A stretch of DNA of 64,000 bases from Stentor roeselii (lineage: Eukaryota > Ciliophora > Heterotrichea > Heterotrichida > Stentoridae), in the NCBI GenBank assembly GCA_006503475.1, contig RSEH01000114.1, positions 62,001 to 126,000 on the forward strand, in the 5' to 3' direction. Numbering within the stretch: position 1 is the first letter of the stretch; every line of letters starts with the position of its first letter. Both the position numbers and the translations under genes were made by a program. The notes beneath the pieces were generated by a model. It saw only the letters and a program-made list of their open reading frames with translations, ran no database searches and was not told the origin of the DNA. This document shows, piece by piece, positions 40,424 through 52,299 of this stretch.

Positions 40424-42425
40424 TATTTATAGTTATTTTTAGTTTTATTGGATCTTAAGTGAATAGAAAATACTTTGATTTTGGCTGCATAAGTTTCAAG
40501 GTTTATATATTTTGGATAATTTGGAAACTTTAAATAAACTGGCTTTGAATTATAATGGTTCGGAATGGCTAGACTATGATTTAACAGTCTCTGACATAAC
40601 ACTTAATATATTGGATTCCAAACATCTTCAAATAATATTTCAACAGAGATTATTAATTATTTTAAGAATTTATATATAAAAAATGAGCCTAGTTCTAATA
40701 ATCATTAGTTTTTCTCTCCTATATTTTATCTTAGTGTTACCAGAATTAAAATTTGGTTACTGCCTATCTTGTGTTTAACTCTCAAATTTCATATATAAAC
40801 ATAGATATCAATCTGGAAATAGTGATCTAATGTGATGAAATGATAGAGCTTATTTGAGCATAATTATTTAAAAGTAGCATATATATACTAATCTCTTATA
40901 ACAAGTATCCAAATCAATACTTGAAATAGGTTTAATTTTCAAAGATTAGAATTAATTAAAGGTAATTTTTATATCAAAAAGAATTCTTATTGGATATATA
41001 CTTAAAAAATCAAAAAAAAGTAGAGAAACACTAATCAAAGATTAAATTTATCGAAATATTTTAAAATACTTCACATACCTTAAAAAAAAATTAATGAAAC
41101 CATCTGTTTTATGGTTTTTTAAGATGAATCATTCAAATTTAGTGAATCCTTACTTTTTAATTATTTAAAATATTAGAACTACTTAATTAAAAAAATTGTA
41201 ATTTACTTAAAATTTTGTTTTCAAAGTTAGATCTTGAAACAAACGTATTTTCTTAATAACATTTACAAAAAAAATTTTTTAATTGGAGCACAATGAATTA
41301 TGATCTGTTATGATGATTCTAGAAAATTTTTATAGTATTTTGAAGAAATCAAGTTTCATTTCATAATTAGTTTGAAAAGATATTCAACTGAGACTTTAGA
41401 AAAAATTTAGTGTATACAAGGGCTAAATTAATACGTCACTTGATCATAAACCAGAGTTTTTGTGTAATTAACAGTTTTATTAAAAGGAGCAGATTTATAA
41501 AACCTTCTTATAATTATCTCAGACTTCTTTAATCAGGAAAATTTATCTTAAACCACTCATATTAACCTGAGAACATCGCAATAGTATTTTCAACTAACAT
41601 TAAGTAATAAATATTAAGTTAAACTACTTATATTAAAAATCTTTCTACAAGTAAGATAGATCTGCATTATTTAATTTTATTATTTCGATAAAGGCTTATT
41701 CGAGCGTCAATTTTTATATTCATATTACCTCAAATAACTTTTATCAAATAAAAATTCTCTAAAAATCTTACCAAAACATTAAATACTTTAGTTCATCTTG
41801 ATTAAAATACCAAATGAAATCAAAACTCCCTATCTTCAAGAAAACATTTGAATAAATACTGATATTCTTGATAAAGAATCATATTCAAGCGCTTATTCAA
41901 AACTTATAAAAAACTTTCTTAATCTAATTAATCACTTGCACTCATCTTTAAATTCTAAGCTTTAATTTCGAAGTCTTCTATGTAAATATTCTGACTCTAA
42001 TAAAATACTTAATAATTCCAAAATAAAGAAGTTCGCCCATCGAAATCTTAGCTAGTCCTCAACACATAAAATTCATAATTTTCTTCTATGAAATTTGAAT
42101 TCTTATAAATAATCTAAGCTTAATAAAACTCCCTAAACAGGACATAGACAAGCAATCGATACTCAGAGTAAACCTAAAAGTAAATCTCAAGGATCACCAC
42201 ACTTGAAGCAACCAAAACTACCTTTATACAGATAAAACCATCACAAAACTAAAAGTCCTGAAATCATCTCGCATCAATAAGTTCTCAAAAAAATCCAAAA
42301 AAAATCACGATCGTCTAAATTCAAAACCAAGTCAACCTCACTTAATCCCACCCTCTAATAAAAAACCCCAAACAATTAATTCACCAGGTCTGAAAATATA
42401 TCCTCCATTGTTCTTCCAATATAAA
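40424..42425. other. 2-kb A/T-rich gene-free stretch
   Basis: No frame of coding character is present on either strand. G exceeds C near the left (upstream of the minus-strand gene). C strongly exceeds G in the last 150 bases before 42426. Short hairpins such as AAACCAT..ATGGTTT near 41096 are within chance for this composition. No tRNA or repeat was recognised. Confidence 0.6.
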
Positions 42426-45400
42426 ATGCTCCTAGCACTGCTTTTTTTTCTTTCGCTCGGCGAAAAAATTGTTGAATATCGTTTCGGTTATAACTTCGGT
42501 GAAATCTTTCGAGATTTTTCCAACAATGGTCGACATGCAGTGAATGGTGACTCTCATCTGACATTTGAGAAAAACGTCAAGTCCACTGACCGAGGCGTTT
42601 ATTTTAACGGTCAAAGAGATCAAGTCATAGTCTTTCCAAGAAATAGTTTTGTTGATCATGATCTGGCCTTGGCTCAACCATTCACGATTGTTTGTTGGTC
42701 AATGATGGAAGATGAAAGTGGACAGTTGATAAAAAGGTTTAAAACAAATGATGAAAATAATGAATATTTTTGGATTAAAAGGGAAAGAAATGGAAAAAGG
42801 ATTCAATTTAAAGCAAAATTACTTGGAAGTGAATCTGGGTTAATAGAAGGGAATAATGATTCTTATTTACATAGTAATTTTCAGGCAGACGTTTGGGTAA
42901 TGATCTCAATGATTGTATCTGGAAAGATGTTCAAATTGTTTAAAAACACTCAAGAGGTTATTAGTTATCAATTTCCGGGAGATTATACAGAAAATGGGTC
43001 TTTTTCTATGGTTTTAGGCGATTTTAGTGTGAATTCGGTTAAAGGATTCATCTGGAATTTTATTTTACTTGACAGTTCTAATGGTCACATGGATTTTTTT
43101 TCTACAAGTTCGAGCACAACTTGCTTAACTCAAATGTGTAACTCTTGTGCATACTCTGTGGTTGATACTTATAATCAAGGTTGCATCTCAACTATACTTG
43201 ATCACAATAAAAACTCAAATGATCAAAAATGCCTTGGAAAAGACGGAAAAAAAAACAAAAAAGGTGAAGACTATGGATGCTCCACTTATGGGCCACTGGA
43301 CTGTGACGATTGCCAATCAAACTCATGTTATCAAAATCAATCTAATAATTATTGCTTATGTCCCCCTGAGGTTTCTATACCTTCTAACAGTTCTTGCGAA
43401 TGTCCTGTAGGCTTTCGTTTTTCATTTGATCTTTGCTGTGAAAGTTCCTGTGCCACTTGCAATAGATCTTCATATTCAACTTGTTTGTCCTGCATAGCTT
43501 TAAATGCAGTTCCTGATGGAAATTTGGGGTGCAAATGTAATGATGGATACTTCGGAGATAAGCCACTTTCAAACATCAATTCTTGCACCGCATGTCATAG
43601 TGAATGCTTGACTTGTATAAATTCAAATAAATGCTTGAAATGTAAAAGCTTGAATGCCAGTCCAGATGTAAATTCAGGCTGCAAGTGTAACCCTGGTTAC
43701 TTCGGAAGTTCTCTTGTACTTTTAAATAGTTGTCAACCTTGTAACGAACAATGTTTTACTTGTTTAAATCCTGATCAGTGCTTAACATGCAAAAGTTTGA
43801 ATGCCAGTCCAGATGTCACTAGAGGATGCAAGTGTAACTCTGAGTACTTCGGAAGTTCTCTTGTACTTTTAAATAGTTGTCAACCTTGTAACGAACAATG
43901 CTCTACTTGTTTAAATTCAACTCAGTGCTTAACATGCAAAAGCTTGAATGCCAGTCCAAATGATACCACAGGATGCAAGTGTAACCCTGGGTATTTTGGA
44001 AGTAATTTACTTGCTTTACATAGCTGCCAGCCATGTAATCTGGAATGTGCAACTTGCTTGAATTCTAATCAGTGTTTATCATGTAAAAGTTTAAACGCTA
44101 GTCCAGATAAAACATCTGGCTGCAAATGCAATGCTGGGTATTTCGGAAGTTCCCTTCAATCACCAAATAGTTGCCAGCCTTGTGGAAAAGACTGCTTAAC
44201 CTGCTTGAATTCTCTGGAATGCCTGACATGTAAAAGTCCGCACGCGGTTCCAGATAAAACATCAGGATGCAGATGCGACTTAGGCTTTTTCAGAAGTTTT
44301 CTTGAACCAGTAATTCATTGCGAGCCATGCAACGATGAATGCCAGACGTGCCAAGAAGCAGGTAAATGTTTATCATGTAAGAACTCGAAAAAAATTCCTA
44401 ATAATTTAATCTCCACGGAGCTCTGCATATGTAAGAAAGGCTTTTATCTTGACTTCCTCTCTGATGACTGTCAAGAGTGCCCAGTGAAATGTTCAGCTTG
44501 CTCCTCTAATGAAAAGTGCTCTGAATGTAAGTCAACTAGCATGACTGGAGACCTCTGCTCCTCATGCCATTCATCCTGTAAGACTTGCGAAGGCAGCTTA
44601 GAGTCAAACTGCTTATCATGCAGCGAAGGCTTTTTACTTCTAGGATATTGTTTAAATGACTGCCCTTTAGGCTTTAAACCTGTAAAAAACACTTGTGTCG
44701 CTTTAAATGAAAAAAATTTAGTACTTCAGCTAAGTTTTCAGTCATTCGGTAAAACTTTTTACGATTCTGTGAATTTTTTACCCTTAGAAGTTGAAAATAT
44801 TCAAGAATCTGTCATTCCTGGGATTTTTTCTTCTTGGCTACGAGGAATTTACTGCAAAGGAACAGGAGTTTTAAAGATGGAGATTGAAAAATCTTTACTT
44901 TTTACAAGTTTTCTTTATTCTTTTTGGACATACCCGATTTCTGAGAATGGCCTGGTTTTCGCAAGGTATGTTTTAACTGGAAGACACTTGAATAGCGAGT
45001 CAGAACTTCAAAGACTTGAGATAGTTTCACTTAGGGTAAGGTTTTCACTTGAGATACTTGGAAAAATTTCAGAAGTTACCAGTTCAGATTCGCTTTCGAT
45101 AAATCAATGGAATCACATAACCCTTCTCCTTGAAAATATCAACTCAAATCAAATCACAGTATCAGTGAACAACATTTCCACGATATTTATTCTAGAATCA
45201 AATGAAACTTACCAGGAAGATTTCAGTTCTTTACTAGTTCTAGCCAATGACCTAGCAGGTACTTCTCCATTTAAAGGCTTTATTTACCTATTTGAAATTT
45301 ATTCATCTTCTTCCTCTTTACCAGAAATTCAAACTTTTTCATCAAAATGCGACTCAAATTGCACTTTTTGTCCTGTTTCAGGATCTTGCATTCCTTCCTG

Positions 45401-47069
45401 CAGGTATGACGAGTACTTCGACGAAACTAGTAATTCTTGCATCAAGTGCAATAAAAAATGCAGAACTGGGTGTAAAGGGCTAAAGTCTTGTGTCTTGTGC
45501 GATGATGAAAACTGTTTAATTTGTCAAAGTTTTCTGAAGGCTGCTTGTAATGAGTGTGCCACAGGCTTCCAGATGATTAACGGGTCTTGCTTTGAATGCC
45601 TTCCACCAACCTTTTATCAACTTTCTTCGAAAACTTGCAGTCCTTGTCCTGAACTCTGCTTAACTTGTGATCAGACCACTTGTCTTAAATGCCAGAAAAA
45701 CAGTGAGTTAAAGAAAAATATTTGTCAATGTCTCAAAGGTTATAAAAAAATCGCTGAAAATTGCATCAGAGAGTTTTTTTCTGTGAAGTTTTGGATGGAT
45801 TCGGAAAATAATGTTTTTATTGTCTTTGAGAATCAACTTAAAATGGATTTAAAGGAGGATCAAATCGAGGTTTTTCAGGATTTTAAAAAAATTTCATTTA
45901 AAATGGAGAAAGTAGAGAAAAAAACTTTTAGGGTTTCACCGGAGTTTAGGGAAATTGAAGGGAAAAGTGTTATTTTAGTCAATTTTACAGAAGAGATAGT
46001 TTCTGTAGATAATAAAATATTAGAAAAAGCGAGTTTTTTCGATGAAATTTCAGTCAAGGTTACTCAAGAAGAGATAGAAACGTGGGAAAAAGCGAATAAT
46101 TCAAAAGTAATGGGAAGAAATGCTCTTGTTGGGCAGGCTGCTGCAGTTGTGACTTTTAGTTTAATGACTTTAGACCCTTCAAGTTTTTTTGATTTTTTGA
46201 ATACAGCTGAGATGTTTTACTCAGTTTACTTGTTTAATTTGAAACTTCATCCAGTTTTAGTAGAGTTCCTCCTGGCCTATCGAATCCAAGGATACATTCC
46301 GAACTTATTCGATTATATCATCGACAAGTCAAAAGGAGTGGAATTATCAGAAAAACTAAAAAAATACGGATTCGAAGTAAATTTTGTGCTGATAAACTTA
46401 GGTCCTCATATTCAAACTTTCGCTTTTTTCCTGATTTTTTTGATATTTGTGCAAATTTTTTCATGTTTTAAAAAATGTTCAAAGAGATTAAAAGGACTTA
46501 GAAAAAAATTCAAGTTTGAGGTTTTTTTGAGATTTTGGATTCAGACTTTTTTCGAATCTGTTGTGACTTGTTACTTTAGTTTAAATGCGATGAAACTTGA
46601 GAATTCTTATCAAATCATGGATTTTGTAGTAATAGTTCTGATAACTGTAATAACAATTCAGCTATTTCAGATTTTAGGAATCTGTTTTTTTTCATATCTG
46701 CTCTTCAAAAGTACTAAAACCAGAACAGAAGAAGAAAAAAAAGAGTTTCTTTCAAAATTTGGTACCTTTTTCGAAGAGTTTAAAGATAAAAGTCTTATGT
46801 TTAAACTATTTTACCTGTTGTATCTGATGAGAAGACTGACTCTTCTGGTGTGTTATTGCTTTATAGACCATGGTATTCTTCAAATAAGCTGCTCGATTTT
46901 CTTTTCAGCGCTTGTAATGATTATTTAGATTCCATTTTATGTGATCACTTTGAGAGTTTTCAACAAAACTAACCAAAACATCTTTCATTTGATTAATGAG
47001 TTGTTGATTCTTGCATTCAATTTCTTGATTTTCAGTTCTTTTTTGAATGGGCAGATCAGAACAATCTGA
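42426..47069 (+). CDS. Large LamG plus furin-like repeat, multi-TM surface protein (family member 2)
   Basis: I choose ATG 42426 over 42408 because the signal peptide MLLALLFFLSLG starts there and AATATAAA abuts it. The CDS joins 42426-46913 and 46929-47069 (1542 aa). Order of parts: a LamG/lectin-like domain (about 15-210); Cys-rich region with 147-bp repeats (about 280-760); a second lectin-like domain (about 770-985); more CxxC modules to about 1120; a beta-rich segment; then about six TM helices. The frame ends in TGA at 47067. A further TM segment in another frame follows directly (next entry) and probably belongs to the same protein, but no 15- or 16-nt intron links them. Confidence 0.82.
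43530..44414 (+). repeat. 147-bp in-frame repeats in the Cys-rich region
   Basis: The TGC AAG/AAA TGT anchor recurs at 43680, 43827, 43974, 44121 and 44268, exactly 147 bp apart, with one earlier unit at 43530 (150 bp). Each unit encodes 49 residues of the type CKCNPGYFGSSLVLLNSCQP. Confidence 0.9.
46914..46928 (+). other. 15-nt intron near the 3' end of the large surface gene
   Basis: GTAATGATTATTTAG removes the false stop and continues into IPFYVITLRVFNK. The identical 15 bases recur in the downstream duplicate at 49942-49956. Confidence 0.82.
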
Positions 47070-47292
47070 AAGGTTAGGACGAGCTTGTTCTTATTTAATC
47101 ATTGCAGCTTTGATTTTAAATATTTTTTTCAGTGCTCTTGAAACAGTCACTAAAACAATCATGAGAATAAAGGATTACTTAAACAAGAGAAAAAACACAA
47201 GAATCACTGTTTATAGATTAAATGAAACTGTTTGTGTCAGTCAGACATTTCCTAAAAATAACGAAGATCCTCAAGTTAAAGGTTTAGAATAA
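47047..47292 (+). CDS. 81-aa TM segment/ORF, last piece of the surface gene or a separate small gene
   Basis: The frame MGRSEQSERLGRAC continues into one hydrophobic helix (SYLIIAALILNIFFSAL), then a basic and polar tail. It overlaps the end of the previous frame by 23 bases in a +1 register. It is certainly coding-like: the copy at 50075-50320 has an identical protein and differs by eight bases, all synonymous. It may be the final TM of the large protein, reached by a noncanonical intron (GT at 47035 to AG at 47059 is 25 nt and gives the right frame) or by frameshifting. It may also be an independent small membrane protein. Confidence 0.7.
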   Translation: MGRSEQSERLGRACSYLIIAALILNIFFSALETVTKTIMRIKDYLNKRKNTRITVYRLNETVCVSQTFPKNNEDPQVKGLE

Positions 47293-47670
47293 TTAAATAG
47301 AGATTTTATAAAAGTTTTGATTTAATAGTGTTGTTTTTGGAATTGCTAGATTTTTATAACAGGAATCTTTTAAATATAATGAATTATATCACAAGCAGCC
47401 CTAGCCGAATTTTTGAATAATTACAGTTGTTCAAACTGTTTAAAGATTAATAGGGAGAGAGTAGCTATCTACTGAGATCAGACTAGATTAATTCAATATA
47501 TCATAAAATAATTAGCCAATTGAAAATATCTAACTAATTCAAATAATCTAAAGCTAGCACTTGAAATGATGAATTTTCATATAAAATATCTCTGATTATG
47601 AACTTGTATATTTATTATATACTAAAATAAACTGCAAAGACTTCGGAAATTATTACCATTTTATTAATAA
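47293..47670. other. Spacer of the duplicated unit, copy 1
   Basis: This is A/T-rich DNA without a gene, clearly homologous to 50321-50741 (shared GAGTAGCTATCTACTGAGAT and flanks). It lacks the 17-bp repeat expansion seen in copy 2. Confidence 0.7.
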
Positions 47671-48117
47671 ATGCTAATCTCATCTATCAAGCAGCCAGAG
47701 AAGCCAACTCAAAAGATTCAAAAATCGATGCCGACTAGAGCGAGAAAAAAATACAATAAGTGCATAAAACAACACAATTTCGTTTTTCCGCTTAACTGTA
47801 AGGATTCAAATCCTTTTATATTAAGGCCATTTAATCATTTCAAGAGTCAAGAAAGATATAACAATTACCTTATCAATAGAAATTATATTATTCAAATTTT
47901 GAGCATGGCATATAAGAAAAACTTTAACAAGTTAAATTTGCAACAAGAGGAAATTCCAGCTGTTGAAGACGTTTTGATTGACACGAAAAATATTTTGAGG
48001 AAAAAGAAATTTGGAGAGATGTACAGGTTTACAAAGAGAGAGAAAACAGAAAGAAAATTTGAAAATTTTAAATTTCTATCATGTGATCAAGGAATTTACA
48101 ATAGTTTATTTAGTTAA
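47671..48117 (+). CDS. Unrecognised basic 148-aa protein, copy A
   Basis: This is a Lys/Asn-rich protein without signal peptide or TM. The first 22 residues (MLISSIKQPEKPTQKIQ) and the last 20 (ENFKFLSCDQGIYNSLFS) are identical in copy B at 50742-51188, as is IDTKNILRKKKFGEM. The middle differs heavily, with about 33 of 148 residues changed. No motif is recognised. Retention of two intact copies in a decaying duplicated segment suggests that it is a real gene. It could be nucleic-acid-binding from charge alone, which is weak evidence. Confidence 0.65.
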   Translation: MLISSIKQPEKPTQKIQKSMPTRARKKYNKCIKQHNFVFPLNCKDSNPFILRPFNHFKSQERYNNYLINRNYIIQILSMAYKKNFNKLNLQQEEIPAVEDVLIDTKNILRKKKFGEMYRFTKREKTERKFENFKFLSCDQGIYNSLFS

Positions 48118-49011
48118 TAAAGAGATTTGAAAAGTTATATGATTATTAATGATATTTGGTAAATTTATGTTAATTTGAATACAGAATTGAAATCTTCTCA
48201 ATTTTCACTAATTATTTACCTTTACAAGAAAATTATTAGATAAAATTAGTATTTTCCATCATTTTCCAAGTTAATTAAACTCAAATATAATAAAAATATT
48301 ACGTATCTTGGATTAAAGGTTATATATTTATCATAAAATGTTTATATATCATTAGGACGATTCAAATATAGTAAAAATCAATAATAAGCAATATTTTATG
48401 ATTCATTCGAAAATAGTACTATTGATCTGTACTAATTAAAATATTGTTTATTAATAGCGAAAATGTTATCTTGACAATTGAAAAAAAATTGCAATCATAC
48501 GATTTTTAGTCCTTCTAAAATTTCATTCCGATGATTTAATGGAGAAGGAGAATTTCAAGATAATAAAAAGTAGAGATACATCTGGCGATTGAAGGCTAGA
48601 TCGAAGATTAAATTTGAGGTTAACCTGCAACTTAAGGTCCTGCTAGATTCGACTTTCCTGAATTTTTGAATCTTTTCTTAGTAAATTATATGATAAACTC
48701 ATATTATTGGTCAATCATATCGATTTCTTTATAAATTGCTATACTCCTTTAAAATTTTTCTATCAGAGCTTTGATTATATTGAAGTATTTCACTAAGTGG
48801 TTTCAAAATATTATCAAAAAGTCTTTTTTTGTTTAAATAGTAAAGATTTGGTTTAAGATTCTTTTATGTCTTTTAAAAAATAGAATTGGAGAGTAAATAT
48901 TTATTAGATCCAAGGTTATGGCGTGTCAAGGCAAAACTTTTAAAACTGGGTTTGGAATTTATCGTTTTGCTGATAGATATGATGCTTTGAGATATTGATA
49001 TTATTAATTTT
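48118..49011. other. Gene-free tail of duplicated unit 1 with an extra block of about 420 bp
   Basis: Bases from about 48570 to 49010 match 51222-51660. Bases about 48152-48570 have no counterpart in copy 2, so they are an insertion here or a deletion there. No terminal repeats, target-site duplication or ORF were seen in the extra block. Confidence 0.6.
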
Positions 49012-49941
49012 TGAGTTGTCAACCTTGTAACGAGTAATGTTCTACTTGTTTAAATTCAACTCAATGCTTAACATGATAAGCTTAAATGCAAGTCAAGATA
49101 AAAATTTAGGATGCAAGTGTAACTCTGGGTACTTCGGAAGTTCTCTTGTACTTTTTAATAGTTGTCAACCTTGTAACGAACAATGTTCTACTTGTTTAAA
49201 TTCAACAAAGTGCTTAACATGCAAAAGCTTGAATGCAAGTCCTGATGATACTGGTGGATGCAAGTGTAATCCTGGATTTTTTGGAAGTAATTTAATTGGT
49301 TTACATAGCTGCCAATCATGCAATCTGCAATGTGCTACTTGTTTGAATTCAAATGAGTGTTTATCATGTAAAAGTTTAAATGCTGTGTTTAAATTATTGA
49401 TTCTTTGTCTTTATTTTTAGATTGAGATGATTATTTTAGGATATGTTTTAATTGAGGGCATTAGGATTAATAAAATCTTTGAATAATGAGATAGTTAGTT
49501 ATTTATTTAAAGTTTAATTATATAAGTATTTTCAATAAATGCCTTTAAATCTAACTACTTGCAGATGTAAGGTATTAGAAAAGGATTCGTTCTATTACTT
49601 AGTTCATTTTTTAGGAACATTTAATTATGAAATAATAATTTATATCTTACATTCACGATTCAGTTCTGATAACAGTAATAAAAATTCAGCTATTTCAAAT
49701 TTTAGGAATTTGTTTTTTTGGATATCTGCTCTTTAAAAGCACTAAAACCAGAAAAGAAGAAGAAAAAAAAGAGTTTCTTTCAAAGTTTGGTACTTTTTTC
49801 GAAGAGTTTAAAGATAAAAGTCTTATGTTTAAACTATTTTACCTGTTGTATGTGATGAGAAAACTGACTCTTCTGGTATATTATTGCTTTATAGACCATG
49901 GTATTCTTCAAATAAGCTGTTCGATATTCTTTTTAGCGCTT

Positions 49942-49956
49942 GTAATGATTATTTAG
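49942..49956 (+). other. 15-nt intron in the duplicate copy
   Basis: GTAATGATTATTTAG is identical to the intron at 46914-46928 and lies at the homologous position. Confidence 0.75.
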
Positions 49957-50074
49957 ATTCCATTTTATGTGATCACTTTGAGAGTTTTCAACAAAACTAA
50001 CCAAAACATCTTTCATTTGATTAATGAGTTGTTGATTCTTGCATTCAATTTCTTGATTTTCAGTTCTTTTTTGA

Positions 50075-50320
50075 ATGGGGAGATCAGAACAATCTGAAAG
50101 GTTAGGAAGAGCTTGTTCTTATTTAATCATTGCAGCTTTGATTTTAAATATTTTTTTCAGTGCTCTTGAAACAGTCACTAAAACAATCATGAGAATAAAG
50201 GATTATTTAAATAAGAGAAAAAATACAAGAATCACTGTTTATAGATTAAATGAAACTGTTTGTGTCAGTCAGACATTTCCTAAGAATAATGAAGATCCTC
50301 AGGTTAAAGGTTTAGAATAA
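50075..50320 (+). CDS. 81-aa ORF, copy 2
   Basis: The protein is identical to 47047-47292 despite eight nucleotide differences. The ATG, the overlap with the upstream frame and the TAA are all kept, although the large gene in front of it is destroyed. This favours either an independent small membrane protein or recent gene conversion. Confidence 0.6.
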   Translation: MGRSEQSERLGRACSYLIIAALILNIFFSALETVTKTIMRIKDYLNKRKNTRITVYRLNETVCVSQTFPKNNEDPQVKGLE

Positions 50321-50741
50321 GTAAATAGATATTTATAAAGTCTTGATTAATAGTGTTGTTTTCGGAATTACTAGATTTTTTCAATCAGGAATCTTTTAAA
50401 TATAATGAATTATATCACAAGTAGACCCGACTTTTTGAATAATTACAGTTATTCAAACTGTTTAAAGATTAATAGGGACAGAGTAGCTATCTACTGAGAT
50501 CAGACTAGATTAATCCAATATATTATAAGATTATTAGAGAATTGAAAATATCTAACGATTGAAATAATCTAACGATTGAAATAATCTAACGATTGAAATA
50601 ATCTAACGATTGAAATAATCTAAATAGAGCGACACTTGAAATGATGATTTTCATATAAATATCTCTTATTATATACTTATATATTTCATATAAACTAAAA
50701 TAAACTGCAAAGACTTAAGATTATCACCATTTTGTTTATAA
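50321..50741. other. Spacer of the duplicated unit, copy 2
   Basis: Homologous to 47293-47670 but with four copies of a 17-bp unit. No gene. Confidence 0.7.
50551..50618. repeat. 17-bp tandem repeat, four copies
   Basis: TCTAACGATTGAAATAA is repeated four times without mismatch, plus a partial unit. The homologous site in copy 1 (about 47530) has a single divergent unit, so the expansion is younger than the duplication. Confidence 0.92.
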
Positions 50742-51188
50742 ATGCTAATCTCATCTATCAAGCAACCTGAGAAACCAACTCAAAAGATTCAAAAATCGAT
50801 GCCGACTTTTGCAAGAAAAAAATACAAGAAGTACTTAAAACATCACAGATGGTATCTTCCACTTAACAGTAAAGATTCAAATCCTTTTAATTTAAGACCA
50901 CTTAATGATTTCAAAAGTCAAGAAAAATATAATGATTACCTTATCAAAAGAAATTATATTATTGATATTTTAAGTGTGGCATCTAAGAAAAACTTTAGCA
51001 AGTTTAATTTGAAAAAAGTGGAAGTTGCTCCTGCTGAAGATGCTTTGATTGACACGAAAAATATTTTAAGGAAAAAGAAATTTGGAGAGATGTGCAGGAT
51101 TATAAAAGAAGAGAAAACAGTAAGAAAATTTGAAAATTTTAAATTTCTATCGTGTGATCAAGGAATTTACAATAGTTTATTTAGTTAA
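50742..51188 (+). CDS. Unrecognised basic 148-aa protein, copy B
   Basis: Same length as copy A with no gaps, and about 78 percent identical by eye count. Changes cluster in the middle and both ends are invariant. The frame is intact. Same context: about 420 bp after the 81-aa ORF. No family is recognised. Confidence 0.65.
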   Translation: MLISSIKQPEKPTQKIQKSMPTFARKKYKKYLKHHRWYLPLNSKDSNPFNLRPLNDFKSQEKYNDYLIKRNYIIDILSVASKKNFSKFNLKKVEVAPAEDALIDTKNILRKKKFGEMCRIIKEEKTVRKFENFKFLSCDQGIYNSLFS

Positions 51189-52299
51189 TAAAGAGATTTG
51201 AAAAGTTATATGATTCAATTCAGTAGAAGTCCGAGGATTGAATATTAGATTAATGATTGAAATTTCAGGTTAATCTGCAACTTAATGTCCTGCAATAATT
51301 CTACTTTCCTGAATTTTAGAATCTTTTGTATAGAAAATATATGATAAACTCATATTATTAGTTGATTCATTTCGATTTCTTTATGAGTTGTTAACAACCT
51401 TTAAAATTTTCTATTAGAGCTGCGATAACATCGAAATATTTTACAAAGTGGGTTTCAAAATATTCTAAAATGTCTTTTTTTTCAAAGAGTTAGGATTTTG
51501 GTTTAGATTCTTTTATGTCTTTTTGAAATAGTAGAATTAGAGAGTAAATATTTTTAGATCCAAGGTGTATGGCTTGTTCAGGCAGTACTTTTAAAACTGG
51601 GCTTTGGAATCTATGGTTTGTAGATGGGTTTGATGCTCTAAGATATTTATTATTGATTATGAACTTTTGAGTTTCTGAGATAGGTAAAGAGTTGATTTGT
51701 CACTACTTTGATGTAAAATTAACTAGTTTCAATTAAATTGATTGGAAATTTAAGTCTAATATTATGCAACTTTTCTTCGTTAAAATCTAAGGAATTTGAA
51801 ATTTCAGAAAGTAATCCAACAAAAATATAAAGAATAAAGTCTTCATTATAATACTGAAGATAAGAAGCATCAGAATTTTTAAATATCCAGATTATGCTAA
51901 TTTCGTAATCATATCTTAAAATGTTTAGAAAATAATTGATAAGTTTTTATATTAGAATATATACAGACAAGTGAAGGGTCAAGTAAACAATTGAAAATTC
52001 AGTTTCAAATTAATTAAATAATAATCAACTCAAAGGCCAAAAAAACTACAAATTAGAATTTTTTTATTCAAATCTATGATTCTTTTAAAAGATTATGAAC
52101 TGTCGTTAATCCATAATTTCAAATTCACAATCACTCTATGTTAATAAAACTATTATCGATTATTTTACTGATTTTTAATTAATCCTGAAATGATCGATAT
52201 TCTTTAAATTGATTTTGTTCAAATTTCTTATAAAAACAATTTAGCTAATGATGCTTCTATTATCTATATTTCTAAAAAGTAAATGTAAATAATTTAAGA
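51189..52299. other. Gene-free stretch: duplicated tail, then unique A/T-rich DNA
   Basis: 51222-51660 is the copy-2 version of 48570-49010. From 51660 to 52299 I see no gene, repeat or RNA. Confidence 0.6.

Follow-up and report, generated by a model that had tools for sequence, protein, structure and literature searches.

A large gene in the window (the whole 64,000-nucleotide stretch of DNA analysed) breaks into the +1 frame near its 3' end, and we consider it probable that this break is a recent one-base lesion that removes the last transmembrane (TM)-like stretch, that is, an ordinary mutation and not a new way of reading a gene. A lesion is favoured because none of 86 spanning relatives carries the shift, the tail behind the break shows no sign of long relaxation, an undiverged tract lies over the break and the second copy of the gene is decayed. 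As such, a tempting case of recoding or odd splicing is largely cleared by comparison with relatives from the same genome, as one extra base in one tandem pair.

The product of the large gene is probably a cell-surface protein. The first ATG of its 4.7-kb exon 1, which is open throughout in this upstream copy, lies at 42426 and starts a stretch that resembles a signal peptide by eye; two Laminin_G_3 stretches (Pfam PF13385, E 6e-11) follow, then Cys-rich repeats and finally a C-terminal domain with several TM-like stretches, again judged by eye. The features of the pair are as follows.

42207..46913, forward strand: exon 1 of the large gene, one open frame
46914..46928, forward strand: 15-nt intron at the intron site of the family, GT-AG, GTAATGATTATTTAG
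46929..47069, forward strand: exon 2 in frame 0, with the frame running over 46929-47066 and a TGA stop at 47067-47069
~47050..47061, forward strand: interval with one extra base compared with aligned relatives, from the alignment; the two copies differ at 47052 (C/G)
47053..47292, forward strand: C-terminal tail in the +1 frame, with the last TM-like stretch and the end of the protein, TAA at 47290-47292; assigned by homology and synonymous copy differences
49014..49384, forward strand: decayed remains of the Cys-rich region in the second copy, interrupted by in-frame stops and one indel
49662..50320, forward strand: C-terminal piece of the second copy, which shows the break too, TGA at 50095-50097

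The sequence-only reading had placed a TGA at 47067 against a coding +1 frame from about 47047, and these coordinates hold: the +1 frame is open from the ATG at 47047 to the TAA at 47290-47292 (81 aa). That this tail is coding goes beyond chance: its best match elsewhere in the genome, leaving out the pair, has an E of 2.4e-17, and all eight bases that distinguish the copies are synonymous in the +1 frame, compared with none of the eight in either other frame. The extra base falls at alignment column 331 or 333 depending on the run, and the UGA stop comes five sense codons after the GGG at the break. TGA seems to act as a stop in this genome, where it ends 3 of 27 frames in the window (32 frames minus five overlapping longer ones). 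In Blepharisma stoltei, UGA is read as tryptophan (PMC9942806). Such a reading was rejected here, with 190 TGG and no TGA codons at the Trp columns of 50 loci; the single TGA met, in L037, sits inside a 15-nt intron (by eye).

The C-terminal domain has at least 129 matching places in the 44.4-Mb genome, some of which may be fragments, the pair making up two of them; 88 of the 127 others were aligned as relatives (48 longer and 40 shorter stretches, both strands tried). Homologues of the C-terminal TM part, to which the sequence-only reading had pointed, could thus be followed across the break in 86 of the 88, all but L099 and L109, and none of the 86 has a shift there; in L024, L025, L026, L032 and L036, for example, the two halves are adjacent and in frame. 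When introns of 11-30 nt were allowed, at half the price of a frameshift, the pair alone among 90 loci showed a frameshift over columns 231-410, in a local alignment that may stop early in place of shifting, as in L099 and L109. With introns limited to 15-17 nt, shifts were proposed in the pair, L062, L063 and L067 in the first run, and in the pair and L063 once the family profile was used; the L067 shift was then gone, as was that of L062, which by eye is a missed 15-nt intron. Another run under the same limit gave proposed shifts in L108 and L109, and those of L063, L108 and L109 turned into 14-nt introns once 11-30 nt were allowed. The pair therefore carries one extra base (net +1) compared with its in-frame relatives. 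Lesions in this domain are otherwise rare, with one clear case in 88 relatives: L064 (C346:10745-11644) has an in-frame TAA at domain column 245 and is possibly another broken member.

The second copy lies 3,028 bases downstream, and the claim that it has the same break at 49957-50320 stands, with 98% identity and 8 differences over these 364 bases. The two copies belong to a duplicated block of about 1.5 kb (46634-48144 and 49662-51215, 88.4% identity), which also contains a 148-aa open frame downstream of each copy (47671-48117 and 50742-51188). Upstream of the block, the second copy retains just a Cys-rich remnant with stops and an indel, and it is therefore a 5'-truncated relic. Before the intron (46641-46913), 10 of the bases at which the copies differ are synonymous; the other 8 are nonsynonymous and affect 7 codons. 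Changes in the second copy include R264K (R in 48/48 relatives), S288L (S in 34/48), C270Y (C in the five closest relatives) and T228K, the last judged by the nearest relative only; at column 217 the upstream copy looks derived, the nearest relative agreeing with the second copy, and the remaining columns, 204 and 261, point to neither copy. Relaxed constraint is thus seen in the second copy; in the upstream one, exon 1 and the tail gave no sign of it.

The divergence of the two copies bears on the age of the break. All seven differences after 47052 leave the amino acid unchanged in the +1 frame of the tail (P 5.4e-5 under random substitution; Fisher test in comparison with the part before the intron, 0.057), and a break older than the duplication combined with an untranslated tail is rejected at the same P of 5.4e-5. 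As all tail differences are synonymous, the tail was translated for most of the time since duplication, and the break must be either recent or still bypassed by the ribosome. Had the break preceded the duplication, recoding would follow; if it arrived later by conversion, recoding would not be needed. The 118 bases before the ATG (46929-47046) were earlier described as identical between the copies, and the identical tract is in fact longer, 46907-47051. It opens a low-divergence tract (46907-47177) that covers both the break and the intron and holds 2 neutral differences in 70.3 neutral-equivalent sites, counting 47052 as one of the two and treating it as neutral; the flanking sequence holds 10 in 53.7 on the upstream side and 6 in 22.3 on the downstream side. 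Scan P values were 0.0087 for at most two differences, 0.024 for none and 0.068 for at most one, and low divergence over the break suggests gene conversion. The upstream tail shows no apparent sign of long relaxation, because its identity to 46 of 48 relatives is as expected from the identity of their domains, with a mean residual of -0.0006 that ranks 23 of 47. In addition, the commonest residue at column 336, S (39/85), survives as a +1-frame codon at 47065-47067, although that codon would go unread both in frame 0 and after a shift at the UGA, which may be a weak hint of recency; E337 would be read after a shift at the UGA and hence does not discriminate between the readings.

Together, these data are consistent with the insertion of one base (net +1) in a single gene of a very large ciliate family, and the adjacent decayed partial duplicate has it too. 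Gene conversion between the neighbours, over a tract of about 46907-47177, may have copied the lesion, perhaps out of the dead copy and into the intact one, and we infer that the lesion is recent. Translation would then most likely terminate at the UGA at 47067, and the protein would lack the last TM-like stretch and the tail. Against a lesion stand the otherwise open 4.7-kb exon 1 of the upstream copy, column 217, where the upstream copy looks derived and the second copy resembles the nearest relative, a conversion tract that rests on scan P values of 0.009 to 0.07, and the apparent scarcity of lesions in this domain among relatives (one clear case in 88). In human CYP21A2 and SBDS, a frameshifted gene copy is shared with a neighbouring pseudogene by gene conversion. 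The present pair is similar in that an open gene lies beside a decayed partial copy and has an indel in common with it inside an undiverged tract; it differs in that the effect here would be a C-terminal truncation, and the direction and timing proposed for the conversion are tentative.

Alternatively, the ribosome might read frame 0 to about LNG or to the UGA and skip one base there, giving a full-length protein. Such +1 frameshifting had been proposed on the ground that the break is kept in two copies; it is possible in principle and, in our judgement, unlikely, and two copies lend it little weight, the second being a decayed neighbour within an unusually undiverged tract. It would fit the otherwise open exon 1 and the purifying selection on the +1 tail of the pair (8/8 synonymous), although the break may postdate most of these differences, and by our reading of the alignment the product of a shift at the UGA would match the relatives in length, with the family-like E337 next. 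However, the shift would be private to one tandem pair (0/86 spanning relatives), and the GGG, CAG and GAG codons at the likely break are common in the family (148, 223 and 259 uses). Folding of the 100 nt behind the break was no more stable than that of shuffled sequences (z 0.98) and thus gave no stimulatory RNA structure in that stretch. The undiverged tract extends back across the intron to 46907, beyond any shift site, and because it includes the intron a ribosomal signal leaves the low divergence unexplained; the persistence of S336 in the +1 frame, ahead of the point where a shift at the UGA could use it, is a weak further argument. It is correspondingly improbable that the gene is still read through by a private +1 frameshift at GGGN or the UGA.

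An error of sequencing or assembly, in which the extra base is absent from the cell or the reads of the two copies are mixed over the 145 identical bases, is likewise doubtful. The identical 145-nt tract ends at the break, as a short-read collapse might give, and the copies differ inside the break interval; on the other hand, the break is in both copies with different bases, and the other 88 loci show no frameshift over columns 231-410, which argues that single-base errors are uncommon here. The sequence-only reading was right that no 15/16-nt intron solves the break, none such being chosen in the alignment; no other small intron was chosen there with 11-30 nt allowed either, and up to 49 nt only a 25-nt one appeared, with frameshifts forbidden. 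The 25-nt GT...AG segment noted at 47035-47059 does exist, its atypical size was correctly recognised, and its removal would restore the frame, but we regard it as very unlikely to be an intron. In its favour, the alignment (11-49 nt) chooses it when frameshifts are forbidden, and the difference at 47052 would become intronic. Nevertheless, a one-base shift outscores it by 27.5 and 29.5 units, even though the shift was priced double, and no intron is chosen there in the 88 relatives; introns at the family site are 15 nt in 73 of 77 cases and 14 nt in the other 4, and all 8806 annotated Stentor introns are 15 or 16 nt (PMC9505925). Its GTT start occurs in 0 of 73 family introns, and its G at -6 contrasts with A in 70 of 73. 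Least probable are two overlapping genes, as had also been suggested; an ATG at 47047 does open the +1 frame, but the relatives carry both parts as one in-frame protein.

Antizyme mRNA is translated by +1 ribosomal frameshifting. In Euplotes, +1 frameshifting takes place at UAA or UAG, mostly with AAA in front (PMC10235951), and the present break resembles both systems in its net +1 within a few codons of a stop in frame 0. It is unlike the Euplotes sites in having UGA, five sense codons after GGG, and in being private to one pair, and any shift at it is hypothetical. The antizyme family (PF02100), taken as a yardstick of +1 shifting, had no match in this genome and none in 14 control genomes either, so that it has no bearing on the question. 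Among the papers listed in a search of the ciliate, Blepharisma and Stentor literature, no title dealt with ribosomal frameshifting in heterotrichs. Translation of the tail, should it occur, would count as evidence that a heterotrich-like ciliate uses +1 frameshifting, and a private shift would represent an isolated step of the kind that is general in Euplotes, in a ciliate with a TGA stop and 15-nt introns.

The intron site of the family showed a further peculiarity. Heterotrich introns are about 95% 15 bp, the rest being 16 bp (PMC11441545), and PMC9505925 gives, for Stentor coeruleus, 8173 of 8806 annotated introns as 15 nt and 633 as 16 nt, mostly with A at position 10 (15 nt) or 11 (16 nt). 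The introns of the present family are alike in being 15 nt long, GT-AG and with A at position 10, whereas the 25-nt candidate at the break has only GT-AG in common with those of S. coeruleus. Together with TGA as a stop, intron length and branch position suggest a heterotrich-like ciliate close to Stentor. Among the 88 relatives, 71 have a 15-nt intron at the site, 13 have none and 4 need 14 nt to keep the frame; the 73 15-nt introns (71 relatives plus the pair) begin with GTA in 70 cases, GTG in three and GTT in none, and 70 have A at position 10 (-6). The four candidates, each a 14-nt GT..AG intron found by alignment, are the following.

L063, C17:47512-48282, reverse strand
L099, C493:5943-6827
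L108, C481:15266-16036
L109, C440:8948-9721

All four (GTAAATNTAANTAG) start with GTAAAT, end with TAG and have A at -6, the frame continues once the 14 nt are removed, and barring this length costs 14 to 19 score units at each locus. In C481, C493 and C440 the intron letters differ and the length of 14 nt is kept; the exon after the intron in C493 and C440 is 62% and 46% identical to that of C481, and in all three this exon is part of an open frame of 186-197 aa; a fourth place, on C514, matches from residue 24 on. The locus on C17 (L063) is a separate case, in which a deletion breaking that gene is possible. Thus four family members apparently need 14-nt introns, one base under the 15-16 nt of heterotrichs. 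When the window was scanned for introns by joined frames, a strict motif gave one match, of 15 nt, and GT..AG alone gave nine, with lengths between 13 and 20 nt. Applied to the other loci, the strict motif returned 58 matches of 15 nt, single ones of 12, 14 and 17 nt, and two of 21 nt. Because 12, 17 and 21 nt were also found, the strict joined-frame scan alone fails to set 14 nt apart. The matches listed in a literature search held no report of 14-nt or 14-bp introns, and if confirmed such introns would bear on the lower size limit of spliceosomal introns. A second 15-nt intron site, at columns 202-206, is present in part of the family (e.g. L026, L041 and L057) and was not found in the window gene.
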